The notes beneath the pieces are model-generated. The model worked only from the letters and a program-made list of their open reading frames with translations. It was not told the DNA's origin and searched no databases. DNA of 64,000 nt from Candidatus Poribacteria bacterium (GTDB lineage: Bacteria > Poribacteria > WGA-4E > WGA-3G), in NCBI GenBank assembly GCA_012267415.1, contig JAAXGN010000036.1:1-64000 (forward strand), in the 5' to 3' direction. The position numbers were made by a program, and so were the translations under genes. Shown here piece after piece: positions 53,927 through 64,000 of this stretch. Within the stretch, counting starts at the first letter, position 1, and every line of letters begins with the position of its first letter.

Positions 53927-54364
53927 CTACTCCTTTTCCACGTACGATTCTATCTGTTCAATTGCTGTTTGAGCACCTTCTCTGACCAATGCAGAAACAT
54001 CATTCTGCGCAAGTTGCTTTAGTTTTTTCAGGCAGTCTCTTGCATCTAATTTACCGAGTGCAACAGCGACAAAATAGCGGACATCCGCGTCTTCATCGTC
54101 GAGTGCTTTTAGCATTGTCTTTATATCGGTAGGTGATGCTAAATGTCGGTCAACATCACCGATATTGATTAGTGATTGTGCAGCGATTCTTCTGGAATGG
54201 ATATCACCGTGAAGGAGTGATGTCAATAATTCGTCATTCCCAGTGGCGATTTCGGTTAGATTATCCCAGTCACAATCCAGACAGAACCAGGACTCTTTAT
54301 CCAACTGTTGCACGTTGACAGTGCTACATTTCGGACATACTTCATAGATATATTCTTGACTCAT
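53927..54364 (-). CDS. Zinc-ribbon and HEAT-repeat protein
   Basis: This 145-residue protein begins with a four-cysteine zinc ribbon (VCPKCSTVNVQQLDKESWFC, then LDC). Three HEAT/PBS-type helical repeats follow (about 45-140), for example HSRRIAAQSLINIGD and DADVRYFVAVALGKLDA. HEAT repeats bind proteins. The ATG overlaps the stop of the upstream gene (TGATG), so translation is coupled. A role in the neighbouring oxidoreductase's pathway is possible but unproven. Confidence 0.75.
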   Translation of the reverse strand: MSQEYIYEVCPKCSTVNVQQLDKESWFCLDCDWDNLTEIATGNDELLTSLLHGDIHSRRIAAQSLINIGDVDRHLASPTDIKTMLKALDDEDADVRYFVAVALGKLDARDCLKKLKQLAQNDVSALVREGAQTAIEQIESYVEKE

Positions 54365-54735
54365 CAGCTATTCATAACCTCCATTTCGGGTAGGTCTCTC
54401 CAGATTTCTGGTCCTTCAGGTTTGAAATTGATTGTTGCGATGAATTGCATGCCGTGATAGAAGTTAATTTTGAATTTTCCGCCGCCGAAGTGTTGCTTTA
54501 GGTAATCCATGGGTGCGTCAATCAAAGGACCCATTTCGTCTGCATAATAGAAAGCGAGTGGTTTAAAGCGAACAGTGTTCCCGACAGGTTCTTGCACTAA
54601 CAACTGTGCGGAGGTAGCAGGAAATAGGACTTGAAAGGCATCCCACAAATCACCGACTGTCGGATTTGGATTGCCAATTCGCTTTTTGAAGTCGTTTTCA
54701 AGATATTCTGAGAAGGTGTTAAATACCCAATCCAT
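54364..54735 (-). CDS. Hypothetical protein
   Basis: This 123-residue soluble protein has a pattern of LVQEPVGNTVRFKPLAFYYADEMG and GGGKFKINFYHGMQFIATINF, suggesting a small alpha/beta fold. No family is recognised. It is translationally coupled to the zinc-ribbon/HEAT gene, with a one-base overlap. Confidence 0.6.
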   Translation of the reverse strand: MDWVFNTFSEYLENDFKKRIGNPNPTVGDLWDAFQVLFPATSAQLLVQEPVGNTVRFKPLAFYYADEMGPLIDAPMDYLKQHFGGGKFKINFYHGMQFIATINFKPEGPEIWRDLPEMEVMNS

Positions 54736-55443: not shown

Positions 55444-55857
55444 TCAAAATGTTGCTGCTTGTTCAAAGAACTCTATATCTACGCGTTCTATTTTTGCGCT
55501 GCGTGCATTCTCTGCGACACGTTGGACAACCATTTCACGCACAAACGGGATTGGTATTCGTTTGACACGATGCACAACCTCTTCGGTGCATGGGACATTC
55601 GTGTTGTCAAGGAAAGGACCGTCATGCATGGGTGTTTCTGCTGGATGATCACAGGTCTCAGGTACAAGTTGCTGTAGTCGCATTGACACATAATCCGTCA
55701 CCCATTGCTGAAATTGTTCCGTGTTATCCGATTCGTTGACAGTTGCTTGCTGCGGTTGATCCAATTTATCATTTATACTCGTAAGTAGGTTTTCCAATCT
55801 TTGCAAGCGGTCTTCTACATTAGTGAGTCTCTGTTGAACATCGTTCTGTTCTTTCAT
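55444..55857 (-). CDS. Coiled-coil protein with C-terminal PCP_red-like domain
   Basis: This 137-residue protein starts with a coiled coil (about 1-45, RLTNVEDRLQRLENLLTSIN), followed by an acidic linker and a C-terminal domain of about 48 residues. That domain, TEEVVHRVKRIPIPFVREMV then VQRVAENARSAKIERVD, aligns by eye with the domains at the ends of the 56934, 58803 and 61757 proteins. I read these as PCP_red, the C-terminal domain of the light-independent protochlorophyllide reductase B subunit. The start has a strong AAGGAGG (55862-55868). Its partner or ligand is unknown. Confidence 0.7.
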   Translation of the reverse strand: MKEQNDVQQRLTNVEDRLQRLENLLTSINDKLDQPQQATVNESDNTEQFQQWVTDYVSMRLQQLVPETCDHPAETPMHDGPFLDNTNVPCTEEVVHRVKRIPIPFVREMVVQRVAENARSAKIERVDIEFFEQAATF

Positions 55858-55910
55858 ATTTCCTCCTTATATTGTGAAACCGATAAATATCATTACACTT
55901 CCTTGCATGA

Positions 55911-55939
55911 CGGGCAATGAATTGCCCTACTACGAACGG
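55911..55939. repeat. Half-palindrome of CGGGCAATGAATTGCCC type
   Basis: CGGGCAATGAATTGCCCTAC plus TACGAACGG matches one arm of the palindrome at 29220, with GGGTAA and TTTAAT following as in the TGAAGATTAA family. No complete terminal repeats are seen. Confidence 0.6.
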
Positions 55940-55981
55940 ATGTTTGATGATGGGTAAGTATATGTTTAATTCTGAGTTTTA

Positions 55982-56701
55982 CTATATTACCCAGTATTTC
56001 CATAAGTCTGCAGGAATTTCATATCTAATTTCTTCACGGTTTTTATGGTGATAGCGTGCAAATATCCCTACTCTTGGGATGTCTCTAATATTGCCAGAAC
56101 CAGTATGACACAAGTATGCATGCCATAACACGACATCTCCTGCTGCACCGATAAACTCCCGTGGTCCTTCGGGTGATAAATCTGAGAACATGTTCCAACC
56201 CCACCCGTCAATATCTCTGAAACTCCCATCAACCTGTTCAGGATACTTGAGGAAGTATTGATGTGTTGTGAGATGACTTTTGGGCCAAAATACGAAGGCA
56301 CCGCCACCCGGTTCAGTATCATAAAGATATGTTGTCGCACCCATCATAAACGGACTCCAACCGCCGGGACCGTAAGCATCAATATGTCCACTTCCTGGCA
56401 TTGACCATTCTGCTTCTGGGTTTGGCCATTTTACCAATGGTGCGCCTCCACCACCAGCAAACTCACCACCACTGAATTGTTGAATTATCCCCTGCATCGC
56501 TGGCAAATGCCCAAAGTTCGGGGAAAAACCGAAGTTTTCTACGACGTAATTGTCGGGCCATGTCTCTGGCGTCTCTAAGCTGGACTTGAAGTGCTTCCAA
56601 ATCTGTTCTCGCCATCCTTCAATCACCTGTGTATCAATCAAGTTTTCAAGGATAAGGAATCCGTTTTCTTTAAAGGATTCTACCTGTTTTGCTGTGAGCA
56701 T
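55982..56701 (-). CDS. Phytanoyl-CoA dioxygenase (PhyH) family protein
   Basis: This protein of about 239 residues belongs to the Fe(II)/2-oxoglutarate oxygenases of the PhyH type. It opens with AKQVESFKENGFLILENLID, typical of the family. The iron ligands are His and Asp in GSGHIDAYGPGG and a distal His in VVLWHAYLCHTGSG, and RVGIFARYH supplies the 2-oxoglutarate-binding Arg. It hydroxylates an unknown small substrate. The frame extends to 56767, but that part is encoded by a MITE-like element. ATG 56701, with AAAGGAAAA upstream, is the likely start. Confidence 0.9.
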   Translation of the reverse strand: MLTAKQVESFKENGFLILENLIDTQVIEGWREQIWKHFKSSLETPETWPDNYVVENFGFSPNFGHLPAMQGIIQQFSGGEFAGGGGAPLVKWPNPEAEWSMPGSGHIDAYGPGGWSPFMMGATTYLYDTEPGGGAFVFWPKSHLTTHQYFLKYPEQVDGSFRDIDGWGWNMFSDLSPEGPREFIGAAGDVVLWHAYLCHTGSGNIRDIPRVGIFARYHHKNREEIRYEIPADLWKYWVI

Positions 56702-56724
56702 GCATTTTTCCTTTTTCAATGATA

Positions 56725-56884
56725 CTATAATGAAGTCAATAATTACTTGTACATAATTGTAGCGCAAACTTTTAGTTTGCGTACACTACTGCACAAACTA
56801 AAAGTTTGTGCTACAACACAGTTCGGTCTTTCGGTTTTGGTCTCGCGTATCAAAAGTGTGCATATATTTTTGTATTTCACTATA
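56725..56884. repeat. MITE-like element with GCGCAAACTTTTAGTTTGCG core, copy 3
   Basis: The 58-bp core at 56758-56815 differs from copy 1 by one base. The outer ends CTATAATGAAGTCAATAATT and TTGTATTTCACTATAATT are imperfect inverted repeats. It lies 24 nt upstream of the PhyH start codon and must contain or displace that gene's promoter. Confidence 0.85.
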
Positions 56885-56933
56885 ATTATACCCTCTATCA
56901 CAGAGCACATATCCAACGATACGTTCATCATGT

Positions 56934-58238
56934 TTAACGTTTTGGTCGGAATGATGGGATGCCCGTTTTATCAAACCGCCTTTTGACTGCTTTCATGAGT
57001 TCAGGTGTGATTTCTCGATAACCGTGTTCACGCGCATACTTTTCTACACTTTTTATTACCATTCCGCGTGCAAATGAAGGGACACGTTTTAGCCTTTTCT
57101 CTGCAGCTGAATTCCATGCTAAGTCGTAGTCGGGTTCGGATGCGAATGCAGTGCGTTTATCAAATCCAATTACAGGTTTCTCCTGTTGACCGGGTTGGTA
57201 TTCACAAGATTCGTCTGCGGCGAGATAATTGCCACCTGTTGCATAAGCACGTGCCCTACACCCTCCACATACTTCTTTGAATTCACAAGCACCACACTTT
57301 CCTTCAAGGAGATTTCTATTACGTAGTTCCTGAAAGGTTTCTGATTCGTTCCATAGTTTAACAAAACTCTCATCCTTAAGATTGCCGACACTAACAGGGA
57401 GATATGGACATGGCGTTAATTCACCTTCAGGACTGATGCGACAATAGTAGATTCCGCAAGGACATGTTCCGCTTGGGTACCCTTGAAGGAATGCTGAATC
57501 AGACTCTTGTTCGTAGATAACACGTTTATAGTGTGGTGCACATTTTGCTGCGATGAGCATCTTCCCGGTATAATCTCTCTGTAGTTTGAACATTGTATCC
57601 AGCATGTTCTCATATTGTGCGGGAGAGATGTCCATGACTGTTTTACCTCTACCTGTACGTACGAGAAAATATAGGTTTAGTACTTTTGCCCCTATCTGAT
57701 ATGCGAATTCTACGATCTCAGGAATTTCATCGTAATTCCACTGTGTGACGGATGTCTGGACGAGGAAATCGAGTTTTGCACGTTTGAGTGCTTCAACGCC
57801 ATTCAGTGTTGCTTTCCATGCACCCGGCATGCCGCGAAACTTATCGTGTTCAGAAGGTTGGATAGAGTCAATGCTCAAACCAGCACCCGTCACGCCATTT
57901 TGTTGCATCTTCTCAACGATCTCATCGTTGAGTAGGACACCGTTTGTTCCCATCACAACGAGGAAACCTGTATCTGATGCATATTTTGAGATCTCTAAAA
58001 TATCTGGACGTAATAAGGGTTCACCACCGGTGAGGATTAGAAGGATATGCGGGTTAATCTCTGCTATCTCATCAATCACTCTGAAACAATCTTTCTGGCT
58101 TAACTCAGCATCTCTGTGATATCCGTGCGGGTGCTCGTCTGTATCAACAAAACCTGCAGGAAGGTAGCAGTGCATGCATTTCAGATTGCACAATCGGGTG
58201 ATATTCCATGATACTGCCTGAACTTTTGTGTTTTCCAT
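56934..58238 (-). CDS. Radical SAM/SPASM protein with C-terminal PCP_red-like domain
   Basis: This 434-residue protein has three parts. The radical SAM domain (about 8-215) binds a 4Fe-4S cluster through Cys17, Cys21 and Cys24 in CNLKCMHC, with ILTGGEPLLRPDI for SAM binding. A cysteine-rich SPASM region (about 250-375) includes CPCGIYYCRISPEGELTPC and KCGACEFKEVCGGCRARAYA. These sequences are close to the AhbD/NirJ group that modifies heme precursors, although peptide-modifying SPASM enzymes also share them. The last 50 residues (LAWNSAAEKRLKRVPSFARG onwards) form a PCP_red-like domain. It abuts the CopD-like gene, with no gap. Confidence 0.9.
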   Translation of the reverse strand: MENTKVQAVSWNITRLCNLKCMHCYLPAGFVDTDEHPHGYHRDAELSQKDCFRVIDEIAEINPHILLILTGGEPLLRPDILEISKYASDTGFLVVMGTNGVLLNDEIVEKMQQNGVTGAGLSIDSIQPSEHDKFRGMPGAWKATLNGVEALKRAKLDFLVQTSVTQWNYDEIPEIVEFAYQIGAKVLNLYFLVRTGRGKTVMDISPAQYENMLDTMFKLQRDYTGKMLIAAKCAPHYKRVIYEQESDSAFLQGYPSGTCPCGIYYCRISPEGELTPCPYLPVSVGNLKDESFVKLWNESETFQELRNRNLLEGKCGACEFKEVCGGCRARAYATGGNYLAADESCEYQPGQQEKPVIGFDKRTAFASEPDYDLAWNSAAEKRLKRVPSFARGMVIKSVEKYAREHGYREITPELMKAVKRRFDKTGIPSFRPKR

Positions 58239-58697
58239 TTAGTTTCTCAAAAACATAGCAAGTGCAAATACAATTATACCTGAAAAGAGTGTTAGATGAC
58301 CAAAGACATTGATATGACGCGGGACAATTATTCTGCTATCTGGTTGTGCTGCCTCAAGATGTCGTTTATAGGACGAACTGTATAAACCCCAGAAGAGTAT
58401 CATAAATGCAAATGCCCCCAACTTTGCAGCAGAATATATCATGTATTGTGCTTCTAATTTCATGCCGCTGTTCCATGCAACGATGAAGATGACGATTCCA
58501 CCTGTGAGTAGTAGCATATCTCTCATGAGCCGTAACACATGCCGAAAGCGATTGTGTATTTCCAATAGTTCTTGTGCTGATAAGTGTTGTCGGATTATCG
58601 GTAATGTAATTAATGTTGAGAAAACAACGCCTCCAAACCAGAGTATTGCTGCAGTGAGGTGAATGCTTCGCATGATGAGTTCTACATAAGTTCGCAT
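58239..58697 (-). CDS. Four-helix membrane protein, CopD/HemJ-like
   Basis: This 152-residue protein has four membrane segments, near residues 10-32, 57-77, 86-106 and 128-149. The first carries MRSIHLTAAILWFGGVVFST, a His-x7-Trp-x-Gly pattern shared by CopD-like proteins and by the protoporphyrinogen oxidase HemJ. Another His (RFRH) follows the loop, and HINVFGHLTLFSG lies in the last helix. These His residues could bind heme or copper. The stop codon directly precedes the ATG of the radical SAM gene. Given that neighbour, a tetrapyrrole or metal link is plausible, but not shown. Confidence 0.65.
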   Translation of the reverse strand: MRTYVELIMRSIHLTAAILWFGGVVFSTLITLPIIRQHLSAQELLEIHNRFRHVLRLMRDMLLLTGGIVIFIVAWNSGMKLEAQYMIYSAAKLGAFAFMILFWGLYSSSYKRHLEAAQPDSRIIVPRHINVFGHLTLFSGIIVFALAMFLRN

Positions 58698-58802
58698 TGT
58701 TTTTCATTAATGTTGTTTTTTATCTGATTTAAGAGTGCAATTTTGCTGATCAATCAGAATGCTTAATACCTCTTAGAGACTATTTGCTTTCTTAGAATAT
58801 AT

Positions 58803-59327
58803 TTAAAATTCTGTTGGGAAGTTGCCGCGTGCGGCATCCATCACTTCACCTGTAATTTCAGTGTGTCCGTTGTCTTTAGCGTAACTCTCTATTCCCATTT
58901 TAGCCATGGGACGAACAAAACTTGGGATCCGTTCTAAACGTTCTAATGCTTCTGATGTCCATTGTAGACCATCGGGTTCCGTTGTAGTGTTTTCCTCAAA
59001 TGCATCAGATATTACAGATGTAAAGGGACATTTTCCACCTTCTTGTGTTTCTGCTGTTTCTGTCCCTGCCTGCATGTTTGGCATGATGTTTTGCTTTCCT
59101 GTCTCTAACTGGGAACGTATCATCTGCATCGGTTGTGCAGTTTCGTTATTACCACCGAGTTTCAGGTCTAAAGATTTCAACATCTGCGTTTCGGATGGAT
59201 TAAGGAACATTGCAATCTCAGTAAAACATTCTGGACATTCAAAAACAGCCGTGATGGAGCCTTGTTCAGGACGTGTTACATCTTTAAATTTCATTGCTGA
59301 ATCGCATTCTATACATAGAAATTTCAT
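58803..59327 (-). CDS. Zinc-ribbon protein with C-terminal PCP_red-like domain
   Basis: This 174-residue protein has an N-terminal four-cysteine knuckle pair (KFLCIECDSAMKF and FECPECFTEIAMF), a linker of about 75 residues that contains GGKCPFTSVI, and a final PCP_red-like domain (about 122-170, LQWTSEALERLERIPSFVRP then MAKMGIESYAKDNGHTEIT). The same order, metal knuckle then PCP_red, recurs in the universal-stress-type protein at 61757. It lies 27 nt downstream of the Mrp ATPase gene and is probably co-transcribed with it. The function is unknown. Confidence 0.78.
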   Translation of the reverse strand: MKFLCIECDSAMKFKDVTRPEQGSITAVFECPECFTEIAMFLNPSETQMLKSLDLKLGGNNETAQPMQMIRSQLETGKQNIMPNMQAGTETAETQEGGKCPFTSVISDAFEENTTTEPDGLQWTSEALERLERIPSFVRPMAKMGIESYAKDNGHTEITGEVMDAARGNFPTEF

Positions 59328-59354
59328 CTGTTAATCTCCTGGAATTCATACCCG

Positions 59355-60236
59355 TTATGTTTTAAAGAAACTCTGAATCTTCTTTGCGACCTGTATTAAG
59401 GATTTACTTGTATCGGTATCTGGATATTTATTTACATACGGTGTGCCACTATCGCTGCAATGAGAGAGTTTGGGATCAAAAGGAATCTGACCAATGATTG
59501 TTGACTGAAAAGGGTTATCAGAAGTTTGCTCTGAAGCAAAGAGTTGTTCGCTTTCACCGCAATGCTGACAGATATAGTAAGCCATATTTTCAACTACCCC
59601 GATGATTGGTACTTTTAGGATGTCTCTGGTCATGGTTACTGACTTCTTTACAATCAGGTGTGATACATCGGATGGGATTGTGATGATAACTACACCACCG
59701 AGATCAGGAATGAGTTCAATCACATTCGGGAGACGTTCAGAACCCGGTGGTAGATCCAGTAGCAAATAATCCAATTCACCCCATTGTGTATCTGCGATAA
59801 ACTCTCGTAGTGCGCTTACTTCCATCGTGCTTCGCCAAGTGAATGCATCTTTCTGAGAATGTGCGTTCCACATCACAGGTGAATCATCGTCTGAGAGGAG
59901 TAGATCCATTGATATGATCTTAGTTCCATGTGAATCGGTTGCGGGGATGACGCCAGATGCTGTGTATTCAAGTGTAGCGTTGCGTACCCCCATCATTTTT
60001 GCGATTGTAGGACCATTTATATCTGCATCCACGATACCAACGGAACACCCCATTCGTGTTAGTGCAGTAGCAAGATTTGCTGTAATAGCACTTTTTCCAA
60101 CACCCCCTTTCCCACTCATAATTGCGACGGTGTGGTCTATGAAAGAGAGTCTCTGATTTAGGCGAGTATGCTGGTCGTTGACTTGCCCGATAATGTTGGA
60201 CCCGGCATCTCCCGGGAGTTGTGTGTACGTTTTCAC
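59355..60236 (-). CDS. mrp: Mrp/ApbC/NBP35-family Fe-S cluster carrier ATPase
   Basis: This 293-residue P-loop ATPase has the deviant Walker A motif IMSGKGGVGKSAITANLATAL, the switch segment GIVDADINGPTIAKMMG and DYLLLDLPPGSER. The CxxC motif in MAYYICQHCGESEQLF holds the bridging 4Fe-4S cluster in a dimer. Mrp proteins store and hand clusters to apo-proteins. The radical SAM and zinc/cysteine-rich proteins encoded next to it are possible clients. Its start overlaps the stop of the PQQ-like propeller gene by four bases. Confidence 0.95.
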   Translation of the reverse strand: MKTYTQLPGDAGSNIIGQVNDQHTRLNQRLSFIDHTVAIMSGKGGVGKSAITANLATALTRMGCSVGIVDADINGPTIAKMMGVRNATLEYTASGVIPATDSHGTKIISMDLLLSDDDSPVMWNAHSQKDAFTWRSTMEVSALREFIADTQWGELDYLLLDLPPGSERLPNVIELIPDLGGVVIITIPSDVSHLIVKKSVTMTRDILKVPIIGVVENMAYYICQHCGESEQLFASEQTSDNPFQSTIIGQIPFDPKLSHCSDSGTPYVNKYPDTDTSKSLIQVAKKIQSFFKT

Positions 60237-61585
60237 TTTTTCTGACTGATGGCGTATAGTGCATCATAACTTCGTAGATATAACGTTCCATCTACAATGA
60301 CAGGTGATGCAGCAACGGGTTCATCTATTGAATTGGTTGCGACGATTTCAAAGTCTCGTCCAGCTTTTACTACATTGACAACACCATCGCGCGCGGTAAG
60401 ATAGATATGACCGTTTGCGTAGATAGGTGAAGACCGGTGTCTATGCCGATGTGTTCTTTCTCTGTATAGAAGATCTCCTGTTTTTGCGTCAAGACAGATA
60501 AGGTCTCCGTTTTCTCTACATAGATAGACCAGACCGTCATGTATGAGTGGTGAAGGAACATCGGGTGTACCGTTCTGAAGCTTCCAGATTTGCCATTCGG
60601 TGTCAGTAATATCACCTTTGCCATTCGGTGCTAATCCTACAACGGGTCCATTTTTTGCTGTTGGCACAACGATTAAACCTTCAGTTGCTACTGGGGACGC
60701 AACGAGACGAAATGAAGAGTTGTAGTTGAATAGAGGGTTCAATCCGCCGCAACGCCATATCTCACTTCCATCATCAAGGCTGTGAGCGGTGACGTAGTCT
60801 GCACCGTGTACGACGAGGAATTCATGGTTTGTGTCTTTGTAAAGTATTGGAGATGTATAGGCGTGTTCACATTCTCGTGTTGCATCACTTTGACGGTCAT
60901 GTTTCCAAATTTCCTCACCTGTCATCTTATTAAGTGCTATGACTAACCATGCGTTACTATGTATGAGTGTAATGTATAACTTATCCTTATAGAGAAGTGG
61001 GGTTGAAGACATAAGAAAACCGAGTCTGAATCTGCCGTATCGTTCTTCAAGATTTATATTCCAAACAAGTTCACCTTGAAAATCATAGCATACAAGGGTT
61101 CCGTTTCCGATAAATGCCCACACGTGTTTTCCATCAGTCGTTGGTGAAGGTGCTGCGTAGTTAACTTCGTCTCCTCTGGAACCTCGGTTATTATCTGAAA
61201 GCGTGCGTTTCCATTGGATTTCCCCTGCAGTACTGACACACATCAGCACAATTTTAGTTTCATCATAAGGTTCTTCAGGTGGACCTTCATCAGCAGATGT
61301 AAGGAATATTTTGTCTTGCCACACGACGGGTGTAGATGCACCTTCTCCTGGTAGCGGTAGTCTCCACCGAACATTTTCAGTTTGACTCCATTCAGTAGGG
61401 ACATCTTTTGCGTGGCTGATACCGTCATTGTTTGGACCTCTCCATTGATTCCAATTCTTTGAATGATCGTCTGCGTGTGCAATATTCGTTACGGATATAG
61501 TGTGAACACATACATTGACAAGTAGAATTGATAAGGTCAAACATAGAAAGGTAGTAATTTGGTTTAGAGAAAACTTCATCTTCAT
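60233..61585 (-). CDS. Exported PQQ-binding-like beta-propeller protein
   Basis: This protein of about 450 residues has a signal peptide (about 8-38, ending NIAHA). A propeller follows with repeated PQQ-like blades: NWNQWRGPNNDGISHA, AGEIQWKRTLSDN, GELVWNINLEERYG, TGEEIWKHDRQ and KTGDLLYRERTH. Many such proteins do not bind PQQ and serve as BamB-like or secreted binding proteins. ATG 61585 lies six bases after GGAGG (61592-61596); an ATG one codon earlier and one two codons later are alternatives. It overlaps the Mrp gene, so an exported propeller and a cytosolic Fe-S carrier are translated from one message. Confidence 0.85.
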   Translation of the reverse strand: MKMKFSLNQITTFLCLTLSILLVNVCVHTISVTNIAHADDHSKNWNQWRGPNNDGISHAKDVPTEWSQTENVRWRLPLPGEGASTPVVWQDKIFLTSADEGPPEEPYDETKIVLMCVSTAGEIQWKRTLSDNNRGSRGDEVNYAAPSPTTDGKHVWAFIGNGTLVCYDFQGELVWNINLEERYGRFRLGFLMSSTPLLYKDKLYITLIHSNAWLVIALNKMTGEEIWKHDRQSDATRECEHAYTSPILYKDTNHEFLVVHGADYVTAHSLDDGSEIWRCGGLNPLFNYNSSFRLVASPVATEGLIVVPTAKNGPVVGLAPNGKGDITDTEWQIWKLQNGTPDVPSPLIHDGLVYLCRENGDLICLDAKTGDLLYRERTHRHRHRSSPIYANGHIYLTARDGVVNVVKAGRDFEIVATNSIDEPVAASPVIVDGTLYLRSYDALYAISQKK

Positions 61586-61653
61586 CATGCACCTCCGTTT
61601 TATGTATTCCATCATATATTTCTTCGTCAAATACACAATCACATCCACCGTCA

Positions 61654-61745
61654 ATAAACATATCGTCCCTACGGGACTAAAGAGAGTTTGTATAACGATT
61701 TTCTATAAACATATCGTCCCTACGGGACTAAAGAGAGTTTGTATT
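61654..61745. repeat. 51-bp tandem repeat, two copies
   Basis: ATAAACATATCGTCCCTACG starts at 61654 and again 51 bp later at 61705. Each unit contains the palindrome GTCCCTACGGGAC and ends GTTTGTAT. It is the same unit as at 21131. It fills the gap between the universal stress gene and the propeller gene. Confidence 0.85.
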
Positions 61746-61756
61746 TGACACCATTC

Positions 61757-63667
61757 TTACGCTGTTTCTTCTGTATTTTTGGGTTGATAATACTCACCTA
61801 ATACTTCATTCGCGAGACTTCGTCCATCTTCAATGACACGTGCGGCGAAATCGAGCGTGACTTCTGTAATACTTGCTTCCATTGCGCGTTGTTCAATTCG
61901 TGTCTGTGTAATATTTCGCATAAATCCAGCAGGAACCAAGTTTAGTCGTTCTATTGCCTCATCTGTCCATTTAAGAGAACTGTCAATATTAATGGGTGTC
62001 TGCAGTTCTGTCGCTTCCGATTGCGATTGCATTGCTCTTAACTCGGGTGCATCTTCACGGACTGCGGCTGCTTCACCCATGCTATCATCAATAATCTGCA
62101 TTGCGAATGCATTTGTGATTGTGTGAATTTTTTGGGAACGCGCAGATTTTTCAATCCGTGCTTTAACATTGCGTCTCATATAACCGCGCGGGACGGTGCG
62201 TAATGCTTTTTTTGACTGCTCTGACCATTGTAGTCTGACCCCATCAAATGTTTCCTCTTCTGCAGTTCCACCTTCGTCTATAGCGATATGTTCAATAGTA
62301 TCTTTGTCAACCATTTGGAATCGTTCAGGTGGAGAACTACAGACGGGACATTTTTTAGGTTGTTGATTATGCGCTGCATACCCACACTCACCACAGATAT
62401 AGGTTTGGACATCACCTGCATCTAAGATTTTCTGTTCAGCGATTTCTTTTGCTACGCGTGTTAGTTTTTTGGATGCCCGTTGCGGCATGATTGCTTCCAT
62501 TGCACTATCAATTACACTCTCTGTGATAACAGAGTGTCCACGTTCAATAGCAAATCGGTGGACTGCGGTTTTTGCGATTCCCCGGACTAAAGGTGGTGCT
62601 TTCTCCATACGGTCCATTGCTTCTTGTGTCCAGACAAGCGTTTCTTCAGCTTTTACATCAATCTGTGGGAAGTAACGTTGACTTGTCAGGAGAACGTTGC
62701 ATGGTGCAAGTCGTAGGAGGTTTTCTGCTGTGCTACCGATATCAGAATCTTGTTCATTATGCACTCCGATTTTTCCGATAACGAGGAGCCACGGTTGGGT
62801 TTTGCGTGTATATTGTAGGATTTTCTCGTACGCTTTGCCATCAAGGAGTGTGATTTTGAGTTGATAATCGTGATCTTCCTTGGCAATTGAACGTGCCACC
62901 TCAAGATGTGACTGGTATATTTTTGCGAGTCCGGTATCAATTACTTCTTCATGGAGTTGTTCCTGTTCTTTGAATCTGAAAGTTCTTGCTGCTCTTTCTG
63001 TGAGGACATTGACAACTGAGTTGAAGACGATGTAGTGCAAATATGGATCATATACGCCAACTGCTTCAACCTGTTTGTTGAACTTTTGTCCCAAGCGAAT
63101 TGCGGTTTTTAATCCGTGGAAAGATTCCGGACTACCATCAATACCTACAAGGATGTTTCCGGACTGTTCTTGTATCGGTTCAAGATTACGGACCACGAGT
63201 GTATCTGTCGTGATTCTTCGGATAACGCGTTCGCACACGCCACCAATAAGACTGTCCTTCACTGCTCCCATTCCGAGGGCACCCATAATGACCAGATCAT
63301 AGTCGCTTTCTTCAATGTCTTCAACGAGTTTGATATAGTGCTTCCCTTCAGGCATCTTTGCTTCAAACGGGATTTCCAATTTTTCACATTTCTGCTTCAT
63401 TACCTCAAGATATGAATCTGATATAAGTTGTAGTCCCATAGTTATGAGTGTGTCGTGGATTCGTCGCTGCTTTTCCAGTTCAACTTCATCCTGATATTCT
63501 TCGGGTAATGTATATTCCATCTGCTTAAAACGCACATCGTGCATTTTAGCGGCATAGACGTGAGAGCCTACCAATTCGGAGTTGAATTTCTTGGCAAATG
63601 CTACAGCTAAGTCTATACTTGCATCTGAATAATCTGAGTTATCTACTGGAACATATATCTTCTTCAT
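61757..63667 (-). CDS. Universal stress protein with rubredoxin-like knuckle and three PCP_red-like domains
   Basis: This 636-residue multidomain protein starts with two UspA domains (about 1-160 and 167-335), the first with MKKIYVPVDNSDYSDASIDL and IMGALGMGAVKDSLIGGVCE, the second with ILVGIDGSPESFHGL. Three PCP_red-like domains follow, at about 345-392 (LVWTQEAMDRMEKAPPLVRG), 480-528 (LQWSEQSKKALRTVPRGYMR) and 568-615 (LKWTDEAIERLNLVPAGFMR). Between the first two lies a rubredoxin-like iron or zinc site, YICGECGYAAHNQQPKKCPVC. I know of no characterised protein with this order. Stress or redox sensing is a guess. Confidence 0.88.
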   Translation of the reverse strand: MKKIYVPVDNSDYSDASIDLAVAFAKKFNSELVGSHVYAAKMHDVRFKQMEYTLPEEYQDEVELEKQRRIHDTLITMGLQLISDSYLEVMKQKCEKLEIPFEAKMPEGKHYIKLVEDIEESDYDLVIMGALGMGAVKDSLIGGVCERVIRRITTDTLVVRNLEPIQEQSGNILVGIDGSPESFHGLKTAIRLGQKFNKQVEAVGVYDPYLHYIVFNSVVNVLTERAARTFRFKEQEQLHEEVIDTGLAKIYQSHLEVARSIAKEDHDYQLKITLLDGKAYEKILQYTRKTQPWLLVIGKIGVHNEQDSDIGSTAENLLRLAPCNVLLTSQRYFPQIDVKAEETLVWTQEAMDRMEKAPPLVRGIAKTAVHRFAIERGHSVITESVIDSAMEAIMPQRASKKLTRVAKEIAEQKILDAGDVQTYICGECGYAAHNQQPKKCPVCSSPPERFQMVDKDTIEHIAIDEGGTAEEETFDGVRLQWSEQSKKALRTVPRGYMRRNVKARIEKSARSQKIHTITNAFAMQIIDDSMGEAAAVREDAPELRAMQSQSEATELQTPINIDSSLKWTDEAIERLNLVPAGFMRNITQTRIEQRAMEASITEVTLDFAARVIEDGRSLANEVLGEYYQPKNTEETA

Positions 63668-63732: not shown

Positions 63733-63996
63733 CTATTCTGTTTTCTTACCCTCACTCGTCTTGTAATGTGAACCAATGTATCCACCAAGAATGTGTGCTA
63801 TCAAGGTTGCTGGCCACAGGTATACAATTGCTGTTTGCCATTGCCAGTTGAGTAGAAAACGTCTGACGATTATGTTTAGCACGATAGGAATATATAAACA
63901 TCTACTCCATGGACGACTGAACTTTTTATATCTTACACGATAAAAACCGAAAGGAAAATGCACCACAAATGCGACGATTGAGATTAATAGGTTCAA
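63733..63996 (-). CDS. Small membrane protein, 5' end possibly beyond window
   Basis: At least 87 residues with three hydrophobic stretches (about 1-17, 33-46 and 55-74) and a polar C-terminus. The possible TTG at 63996 lies four bases from the window edge, and the frame stays open to the edge, so the gene may start further out. No family is recognised. Confidence 0.5.
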   Translation of the reverse strand: MNLLISIVAFVVHFPFGFYRVRYKKFSRPWSRCLYIPIVLNIIVRRFLLNWQWQTAIVYLWPATLIAHILGGYIGSHYKTSEGKKTE

Positions 63997-64000
63997 ATCC

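Follow-up and report, generated by a model that had tools for sequence, protein, structure and literature searches.

A set of PCP_red domain proteins in Poribacteria as a candidate heme supply or maturation module for a bd-like respiratory chain

The PCP_red domain (PF08369) forms the C-terminus of BchB/ChlB, subunit B of light-independent protochlorophyllide reductase (DPOR), and the locus described here raises the question of what six such domains are doing side by side in a genome in which no match to the DPOR N/B family was found. The locus lies in a 64,000-nucleotide stretch of Candidatus Poribacteria DNA (GCA_012267415.1, contig JAAXGN010000036.1, positions 1 to 64,000; the window in the following), which is part of a 5.46-Mb genome (G000; contig C146). 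Within 8.2 kb (55444-63667), four minus-strand genes carry the six domains, spread 3, 1, 1 and 1, and the open reading frames (ORFs) stand where a first-pass annotation, made from the sequence alone, had placed them. Down the minus strand from the window end, the gene order is small membrane protein, USP-PCP3, PQQ-type propeller, Mrp, ZnR-PCP, CopD-like, rSAM-PCP, PhyH-family and PCPc. As argued below, these genes may form a module that supplies or matures heme for a bd-like respiratory chain.

The identity of the domain, which had been recognized by eye, was confirmed by profile search. Against a curated PF08369 cut-off of 32.5 bits, the whole-protein scores (hmmscan) were 92.9 bits for USP-PCP3 (636 aa, 61757..63667, three stretches), 62.5 bits for ZnR-PCP (174 aa, 58803..59327), 58.5 bits for rSAM-PCP (434 aa, 56934..58238) and 24.2 bits for PCPc (137 aa, 55444..55857), so that three of the four proteins pass and PCPc stays under it. 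The weak domain of PCPc was accepted in view of its orthologs, 12 of 14 of which reach E≤0.001 with PF08369. When the whole genome was searched, four of the six single domains scored above the cut-off (65.1, 62.8, 46.8 and 34.0 bits) and two below (30.9 and 25.7 bits); a seventh match of 13.6 bits on another contig was taken as noise. All six credible PCP_red domains of the genome fall inside the 8.2 kb. The domain consensus has a near-invariant Trp (87%), a Pro (99%) and two Arg (88% and 90%), and by sequence the domains belong to the same family as the C-terminal domain of BchB/ChlB (PDB 2xdq, 2ynm, 3aek, 8vqi; NMR entries 2kru, 2l09). In contrast to BchB/ChlB, the set has no PF00148 N/B protein, and PCP_red is found on other carriers and in repeats. 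The claim that chlorophyll genes are missing holds for PF00148 (DPOR N/B and nitrogenase), of which no match at E≤1e-5 was obtained in the window genome or in 22 Poribacteria, other chlorophyll genes not having been searched for. These genomes were compared within a panel of 37, of which 29 are PCP_red-positive and 8 negative and the 15 non-Poribacteria were picked for having rSAM-PCP. PF00148 was present in three of these 15 (G089, G090 and G097), nitrogenase and DPOR not being told apart.

Conservation within the phylum argues against a chance arrangement: of 84 Poribacteria genomes, 70 gave PF08369 matches (E≤1e-4; positions taken among the matches listed), and three families share the gene order. 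Five or six matches were present in 62 of the 70. Each listed genome of families f1, f2 and f4 was positive, as was one f5 genome (G055), and no match at this threshold was found in three f3 genomes or in 11 others of the phylum. The order USP-PCP3, (PQQ), Mrp, ZnR-PCP, CopD, rSAM-PCP, (PhyH), PCPc is shared by f1, f2 and f4. In the g2 genomes that are closed or nearly so, and likewise in G019 and G043, the set is broken up over distant places but its genes are retained. Mean column identity was 81% for USP-PCP3 (n=15), 71% for rSAM-PCP (n=16) and 67% for ZnR-PCP (n=14).

Parts of the set are also found in eight other phyla: the AhbD-type enzyme with PCP_red, USP proteins with varying numbers of PCP_red, and Mrp beside ZnR-PCP. 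Named genomes were scanned with the rSAM-PCP alignment, using a collecting pattern that includes two of the AhbD motif cysteines, and at least 544 confirmed relatives were obtained, of which the best 80 were analyzed. In all 80 loci the radical SAM protein bears PCP_red as judged by a profile made for this analysis, and 37 of them lie outside Poribacteria, in Gemmatimonadota, Nitrospirota, Nitrospinota, Myxococcota (titled Deltaproteobacteria), Acidobacteriota, Pseudomonadota, Armatimonadota and Chloroflexota. At least one additional PCP_red gene was present in 23 of these 37 stretches, and Mrp stood directly before ZnR-PCP in 13. All four genomes of the Nitrospiraceae family of G096 were positive, with 6, 10, 10 and 9 PF08369 matches, and the parts are scattered: a CopD-like gene comes after USP-PCP3 in two genomes (L275, L277), a ZnR protein that bears two PCP_red comes after Mrp (L273, L276), and rSAM-PCP lies elsewhere, L281 being covered only in part by this comparison. 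Three of the four also encode a protein of about 335 aa that consists of little besides four or more PCP_red units (L272:6711-7718, L278:7976-8977). Joint retention of genes that have no constant position argues well for a common function. The first-pass annotation had named co-occurrence in other genomes as a check on its reading, and such co-occurrence was found both in other Poribacteria and beyond them, so that the reading withstood this check. In Sedimenticola and Gallionella (L102:1674-5997, L098:2979-6628), three PCP_red were seen on the radical SAM protein and three to five on the adjoining USP protein. In plasmid records, of which 15 of 36 were covered, the PCP_red array protein had no match.

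The enzyme of the set is rSAM-PCP, a radical SAM/SPASM protein (PF04055, PF13186) with a C-terminal PCP_red (56982-57116). Its best NCBIfam matches were AhbD (TIGR04545, 329 bits) and NirJ2 (308 bits), the cut-off being 500 for both. AhbD is marked by the cysteines CX3CX2C and a SPASM motif CX20-33CX17CX36-37CX2CX5CX2CX17-35C (excerpt of PMC10452713), and the window rSAM-PCP has all eight auxiliary-cluster cysteines at the published spacing (residues 233-345). The full SPASM motif was present in 78 of the 80 loci and, among the proteins placed in a tree, in 35 of 37 PCP_red bearers (not in L089 and L094), four of four AhbD-like proteins and none of seven other relatives. In this tree, which was calculated from the catalytic part with the PCP_red columns excluded, the 37 PCP_red bearers fall on one side of a branch (97/95) and the AhbD-like group is adjacent. 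By its anatomy, rSAM-PCP would work like AhbD; it was not filed as AhbD because it scores below the equivalog cut-off of 500 bits, and it differs from AhbD further in the additional PCP_red and in forming a group of its own. In three genomes (G092, G089 and G098), rSAM-PCP is accompanied by an AhbD or AhbD-like gene, which speaks for a second, dedicated role of rSAM-PCP. Another radical SAM/SPASM family, TIGR04053, is homologous in part (269.5 bits against a cut-off of 395), and plasmid-borne relatives stop aligning at residue 356 or earlier, before PCP_red (the same 15 of 36 records). The main Poribacteria rSAM-PCP group stands with Nitrospiraceae (L125, L143; 100/100) and Poribacteria ARS61 (L087) elsewhere in the tree, a placement which suggests that rSAM-PCP was horizontally transferred.

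A second enzyme connects PCP_red to heme. Two Nitrospinota genomes (G094 and G093) encode a coproheme decarboxylase ChdC (HemQ; PF06778) with an N-terminal PCP_red, which scores 52.9 and 47.4 bits, above the Pfam cut-off (L175:1465-2418, minus strand; L182:1147-2109, plus strand). ChdC is unrelated to rSAM-PCP, and the conversion of coproheme to heme is catalyzed by AhbD in some organisms and by ChdC in others (excerpt of PMC7242693). Since BchB, ChdC and an AhbD-type enzyme all bear PCP_red, tetrapyrrole handling is the best explanation for the domain, and the shared ligand or partner suggested at first pass finds support at the level of sequence in these enzyme types, known members of which act on tetrapyrroles. 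In the Gemmatimonadota genome G084, a complete heme run of HemH, HemA, HemC, HemD, HemB, ChdC, HemE, PPOX and HemL (the last a class-III aminotransferase match named by eye) continues into ferredoxin, Mrp, ZnR-PCP, an ABC pair, USP-PCP2 and rSAM-PCP. According to locus labels that are tblastn best matches, in which cross-matches through PCP_red or cytochrome c motifs are possible, a heme-biosynthesis gene was present in nine of the 37 non-Poribacteria stretches, with PPOX directly after rSAM-PCP in three (L102, L161, L164). The ChdC-like protein of Poribacteria has no PCP_red, in contrast to the fused ChdC, and matches only the C-terminal part of the PF06778/HemQ models (L193:8258-9013, minus strand; L199:1991-2746, plus strand). 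Its gene lies some kilobases from the PCP_red set on the same contig in G035, G037 and G048. In G098 and G089 (L197, L198), HemE, ferrochelatase and PPOX stand beside an AhbD-like gene without PCP_red, an arrangement of a kind published before (excerpt of PMC10548856).

Just outside the window, and beyond what the first-pass annotation could see, the set runs on into respiratory-chain genes. Upstream on the same contig and strand, the window genome encodes a Rieske protein, a split cytochrome b, a cytochrome with eight CxxCH, the bd-like protein, cytochromes c4, c2 and c1 (the break in the c1 gene between L194 and L238 is a stretch boundary), an ABC pair, CtaC, D, A and B, oxidase subunit III and SCO1, and then USP-PCP3. 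The linked bd-like protein matches PF01654 only at positions 2-242 of 418 (57.7 bits), unlike canonical subunit I, which matches the whole model; a separate canonical PF01654 gene is also present in this genome (520 bits). Similarly, in Gemmatimonadota rSAM-PCP is followed by a bd-like subunit with the N-terminal half of PF01654 only, two cytochromes c, a protein that combines two cytochrome c stretches with an EB_dh heme-b domain, and genes for cytochrome oxidase. A tblastn match to the bd, c4, c2 or c1 genes, with the same possibility of cross-matches, was obtained in 22 of the 37 stretches from other phyla. The bd-like PF01654 gene was present in 28 of the 29 PCP_red-positive panel genomes, and the eight negatives had no PF01654 match. 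In 11 of 13 panel Poribacteria of f1, f2 and f4 it lies within about 26 kb of USP-PCP3 or ZnR-PCP on the same contig, in G040 and G048 on a different contig, and in the Nitrospinota genomes the bd-like genes are located elsewhere. A cluster with a bd-like oxidase, an alternative NxrC and mono- and diheme cytochromes c has been described for Nitrospina and Nitrospira (excerpts of PMC3578206 and PMC6606698), and the composition of the linked bd-like, c4, c2 and c1 genes is that of this cluster, known from Nitrospira, Nitrospina and anammox bacteria. Shared between them are the N-terminal PF01654 match, the cytochromes c and the protein with two CxxCH and an EB_dh domain; in contrast to the set described here, no PCP_red partner is mentioned in the excerpts of either paper.

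Taken together, these results are consistent with the PCP_red proteins, Mrp and the CopD-like protein forming a heme (tetrapyrrole) supply or maturation module for the bd-like respiratory chain, a reading to which we give about an even chance. The chain served would comprise the divergent bd-like subunit, the cytochromes c and the alternative NxrC-like heme-b subunit, whose genes have bc-type and heme-copper oxidase genes as neighbors. Substrate, product and all carrier and scaffold roles we infer as follows. PCP_red may be a shared unit for binding, presenting or capping a tetrapyrrole or for docking on its carrier. For rSAM-PCP, in which three [4Fe-4S] clusters are predicted, the most likely reaction would be the oxygen-independent removal of propionate carboxyls from iron-coproporphyrin or a close relative. 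Mrp and ZnR-PCP could load its Fe-S clusters or pass on the substrate, USP-PCP3 could act as an energy- or redox-sensing scaffold carrying several PCP_red units, and the CopD-like protein might be the membrane end of the module, whose product would be used by the linked chain.

Several observations weigh against this proposal. PCP_red was found on only two of 11 ChdC genes examined and on none of the other nine. The PCP_red-bearing radical SAM genes listed reach 263-332 bits with TIGR04545, one 367, and stay below 500 in every genome. No conserved His or Cys is seen in the PCP_red consensus and hence no iron ligand, so that the domain may grip carboxylates and the ring rather than iron. Several loci, above all in Nitrospinota, have rSAM-PCP without heme or respiratory genes nearby, and one genome (G089) has PCP_red but no bd-like match. 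The association of the bd-like gene with PCP_red (Fisher p = 2e-7) is uncorrected for shared descent, and the panel negatives are all Poribacteria, 8 from the 14 without PCP_red matches, because the non-Poribacteria were picked for rSAM-PCP. Finally, the bd-like complex is also reported from anammox bacteria (excerpt of PMC3578206), a group beyond those compared here for PCP_red.

A bolder form of the proposal is that PCP_red is a general porphyrin-handover domain and that the set produces a modified heme distinct from heme b and hands it to the bd-like/alternative-NxrC complex. In this scheme, reduction or cluster loading would fall to Mrp and ferredoxin, in distant parallel to BchL in chlorophyll synthesis. 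Judged from the sequences we consider this form rather doubtful.

Among the alternatives, the one that survives best, although still rather unlikely in our view, is that rSAM-PCP is a plain oxygen-independent heme b synthase that stands beside ChdC as HemN does beside HemF, the other PCP_red proteins tuning it to oxygen or energy and the respiratory linkage reflecting heme demand. The AhbD-type cysteine motif fits this, as do the heme gene counts: HemF was found in none of the 37 panel genomes, HemN above cut-off in four, and ferrochelatase and PPOX in 29 each, a pattern consistent with many of these bacteria using a coproporphyrin-type route. AhbD encoded with hemY/hemH/hemQ has moreover been reported already (excerpt of PMC10548856). 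Against it, ChdC-family genes are present in 26 of the 37 genomes (in the main Poribacteria order as a weak, partial PF06778 match of 58-67 bits), AhbD is found above cut-off in one and AhbD-like genes of more than 430 bits in three more, so that rSAM-PCP is often not the sole candidate for the last heme step. The f3 Poribacteria, which have no PCP_red, have the same ferrochelatase, PPOX and partial ChdC-like genes, and a plain heme b synthase would leave the association with the bd-like gene unexplained. In its simple form, the idea that rSAM-PCP stands in for missing HemN, HemF and ChdC was dropped in view of the ChdC count and of AhbD or AhbD-like genes in G092, G041, G089 and G098. A 453-aa HemN-like gene of the window genome was likewise rejected as HemN (195 bits against a cut-off of 324.95).

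PCP_red could also be a protein-docking unit without a tetrapyrrole ligand, and the set a complex for redox or stress response through which respiratory enzymes are assembled or regulated. The USP domains, the rubredoxin-like and zinc-ribbon-like parts and Mrp would suit such a complex, and both the consensus without a conserved His or Cys and repeats of up to five units would suit a scaffold. However, the PCP_red-bearing enzymes (BchB, AhbD-type, ChdC) belong to tetrapyrrole families and heme genes adjoin the set in several phyla, which makes this explanation quite unlikely, and docking on a tetrapyrrole carrier would remain compatible with the heme supply or maturation module. That rSAM-PCP modifies a peptide or protein recognized by PCP_red, as many SPASM enzymes modify such substrates, is very improbable: the peptide-maturase families GeoRSP (151 bits) and mycofactocin (130 bits) do match and PqqE and SkfB are the nearest solved SPASM chains by sequence, but the scores of the heme families are far above these, the cysteines are spaced exactly as in AhbD, and no short precursor-like gene common to the loci was seen, a systematic search for one not having been made.

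The remaining features of the locus, all on the minus strand, fit around these genes; the labels zinc-ribbon, coiled-coil-like, ABC pair and oxidase subunit IV were given by eye. USP-PCP3 consists of two USP stretches (PF00582, 121.8 bits, above cut-off), a PCP_red (62501-62632), a rubredoxin-like CxxC pair and two further PCP_red (62108-62227 and 61847-61969); its rubredoxin-like part scores 23.6 bits with PF21349, below the cut-off of 26.5, and has a rubrerythrin match in the PDB (E 1.8e-6). ZnR-PCP starts with a zinc-ribbon-like CxxC...CxxC, has an invariant GGKCPF and ends in PCP_red (58827-58961). In PCPc, an N-terminal part that looks heptad-like by eye precedes a degenerate PCP_red at the C-terminus (55456-55584), in which Cys replaces the usual Trp. 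The neighbors named at first pass were borne out for the radical SAM/SPASM protein near heme enzymes, for Mrp and for the PQQ-type propeller, while the CopD/HemJ-like assignment was recovered in part. Mrp (59355..60236) is a Mrp/NUBPL-type Fe-S carrier P-loop NTPase (PF10609, 240.6 bits, above cut-off) whose CxxC pair reads CQHC. The CopD-like membrane protein (152 aa, 58239..58697), whose gene is kept in the Poribacteria order, scores 23.5 bits with PF05425, below the cut-off of 32.1, and a HemJ-type oxidase is unsupported (PF03653, 13.5 bits against 34.2). The PQQ-type beta-propeller protein (60233..61654; PF13360, 80.4 bits; synteny) is probably accessory and is missing from several f2 and f4 loci. 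Probably accessory, too, is the PhyH-family dioxygenase-like gene (55982..56767; PF05721, 30.5 bits; synteny), an insertion between rSAM-PCP and PCPc which is present in f1 and was not seen in f2 and f4 loci. The small membrane protein (63733..63999, ORF open at the window end; no Pfam match above cut-off) joins the set to the SCO1/cytochrome oxidase genes beyond the window and has the same position in other Poribacteria. Beside the set, a 123-aa protein (54364-54735) shows 78-97% identity in the Poribacteria loci where it was found and has no Pfam or NCBIfam match.

The first-pass interpretation is thus partly supported. No published description of such a PCP_red gene set was found among open-licence PMC papers, in line with its view of the system as undescribed; every part belongs to a known family, and the combination, the ChdC fusion and the bd-like tie appear to be undescribed. 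Annotation treats PCP_red as part of a chlorophyll enzyme, yet the domain recurs here in sets of non-phototroph type in nine phyla. That it is joined to an AhbD-type enzyme and to ChdC, two unrelated types of coproheme decarboxylase, turns its role into a testable claim, and a new subgroup of heme-type radical SAM enzymes receives a candidate function. The set further provides maturation candidates for the bd-like/alternative-NxrC complex. The function of the bd-like protein has been called enigmatic (excerpt of PMC3578206), and if the set indeed makes a modified heme, the cofactor of this complex of nitrite oxidizers would be revealed.

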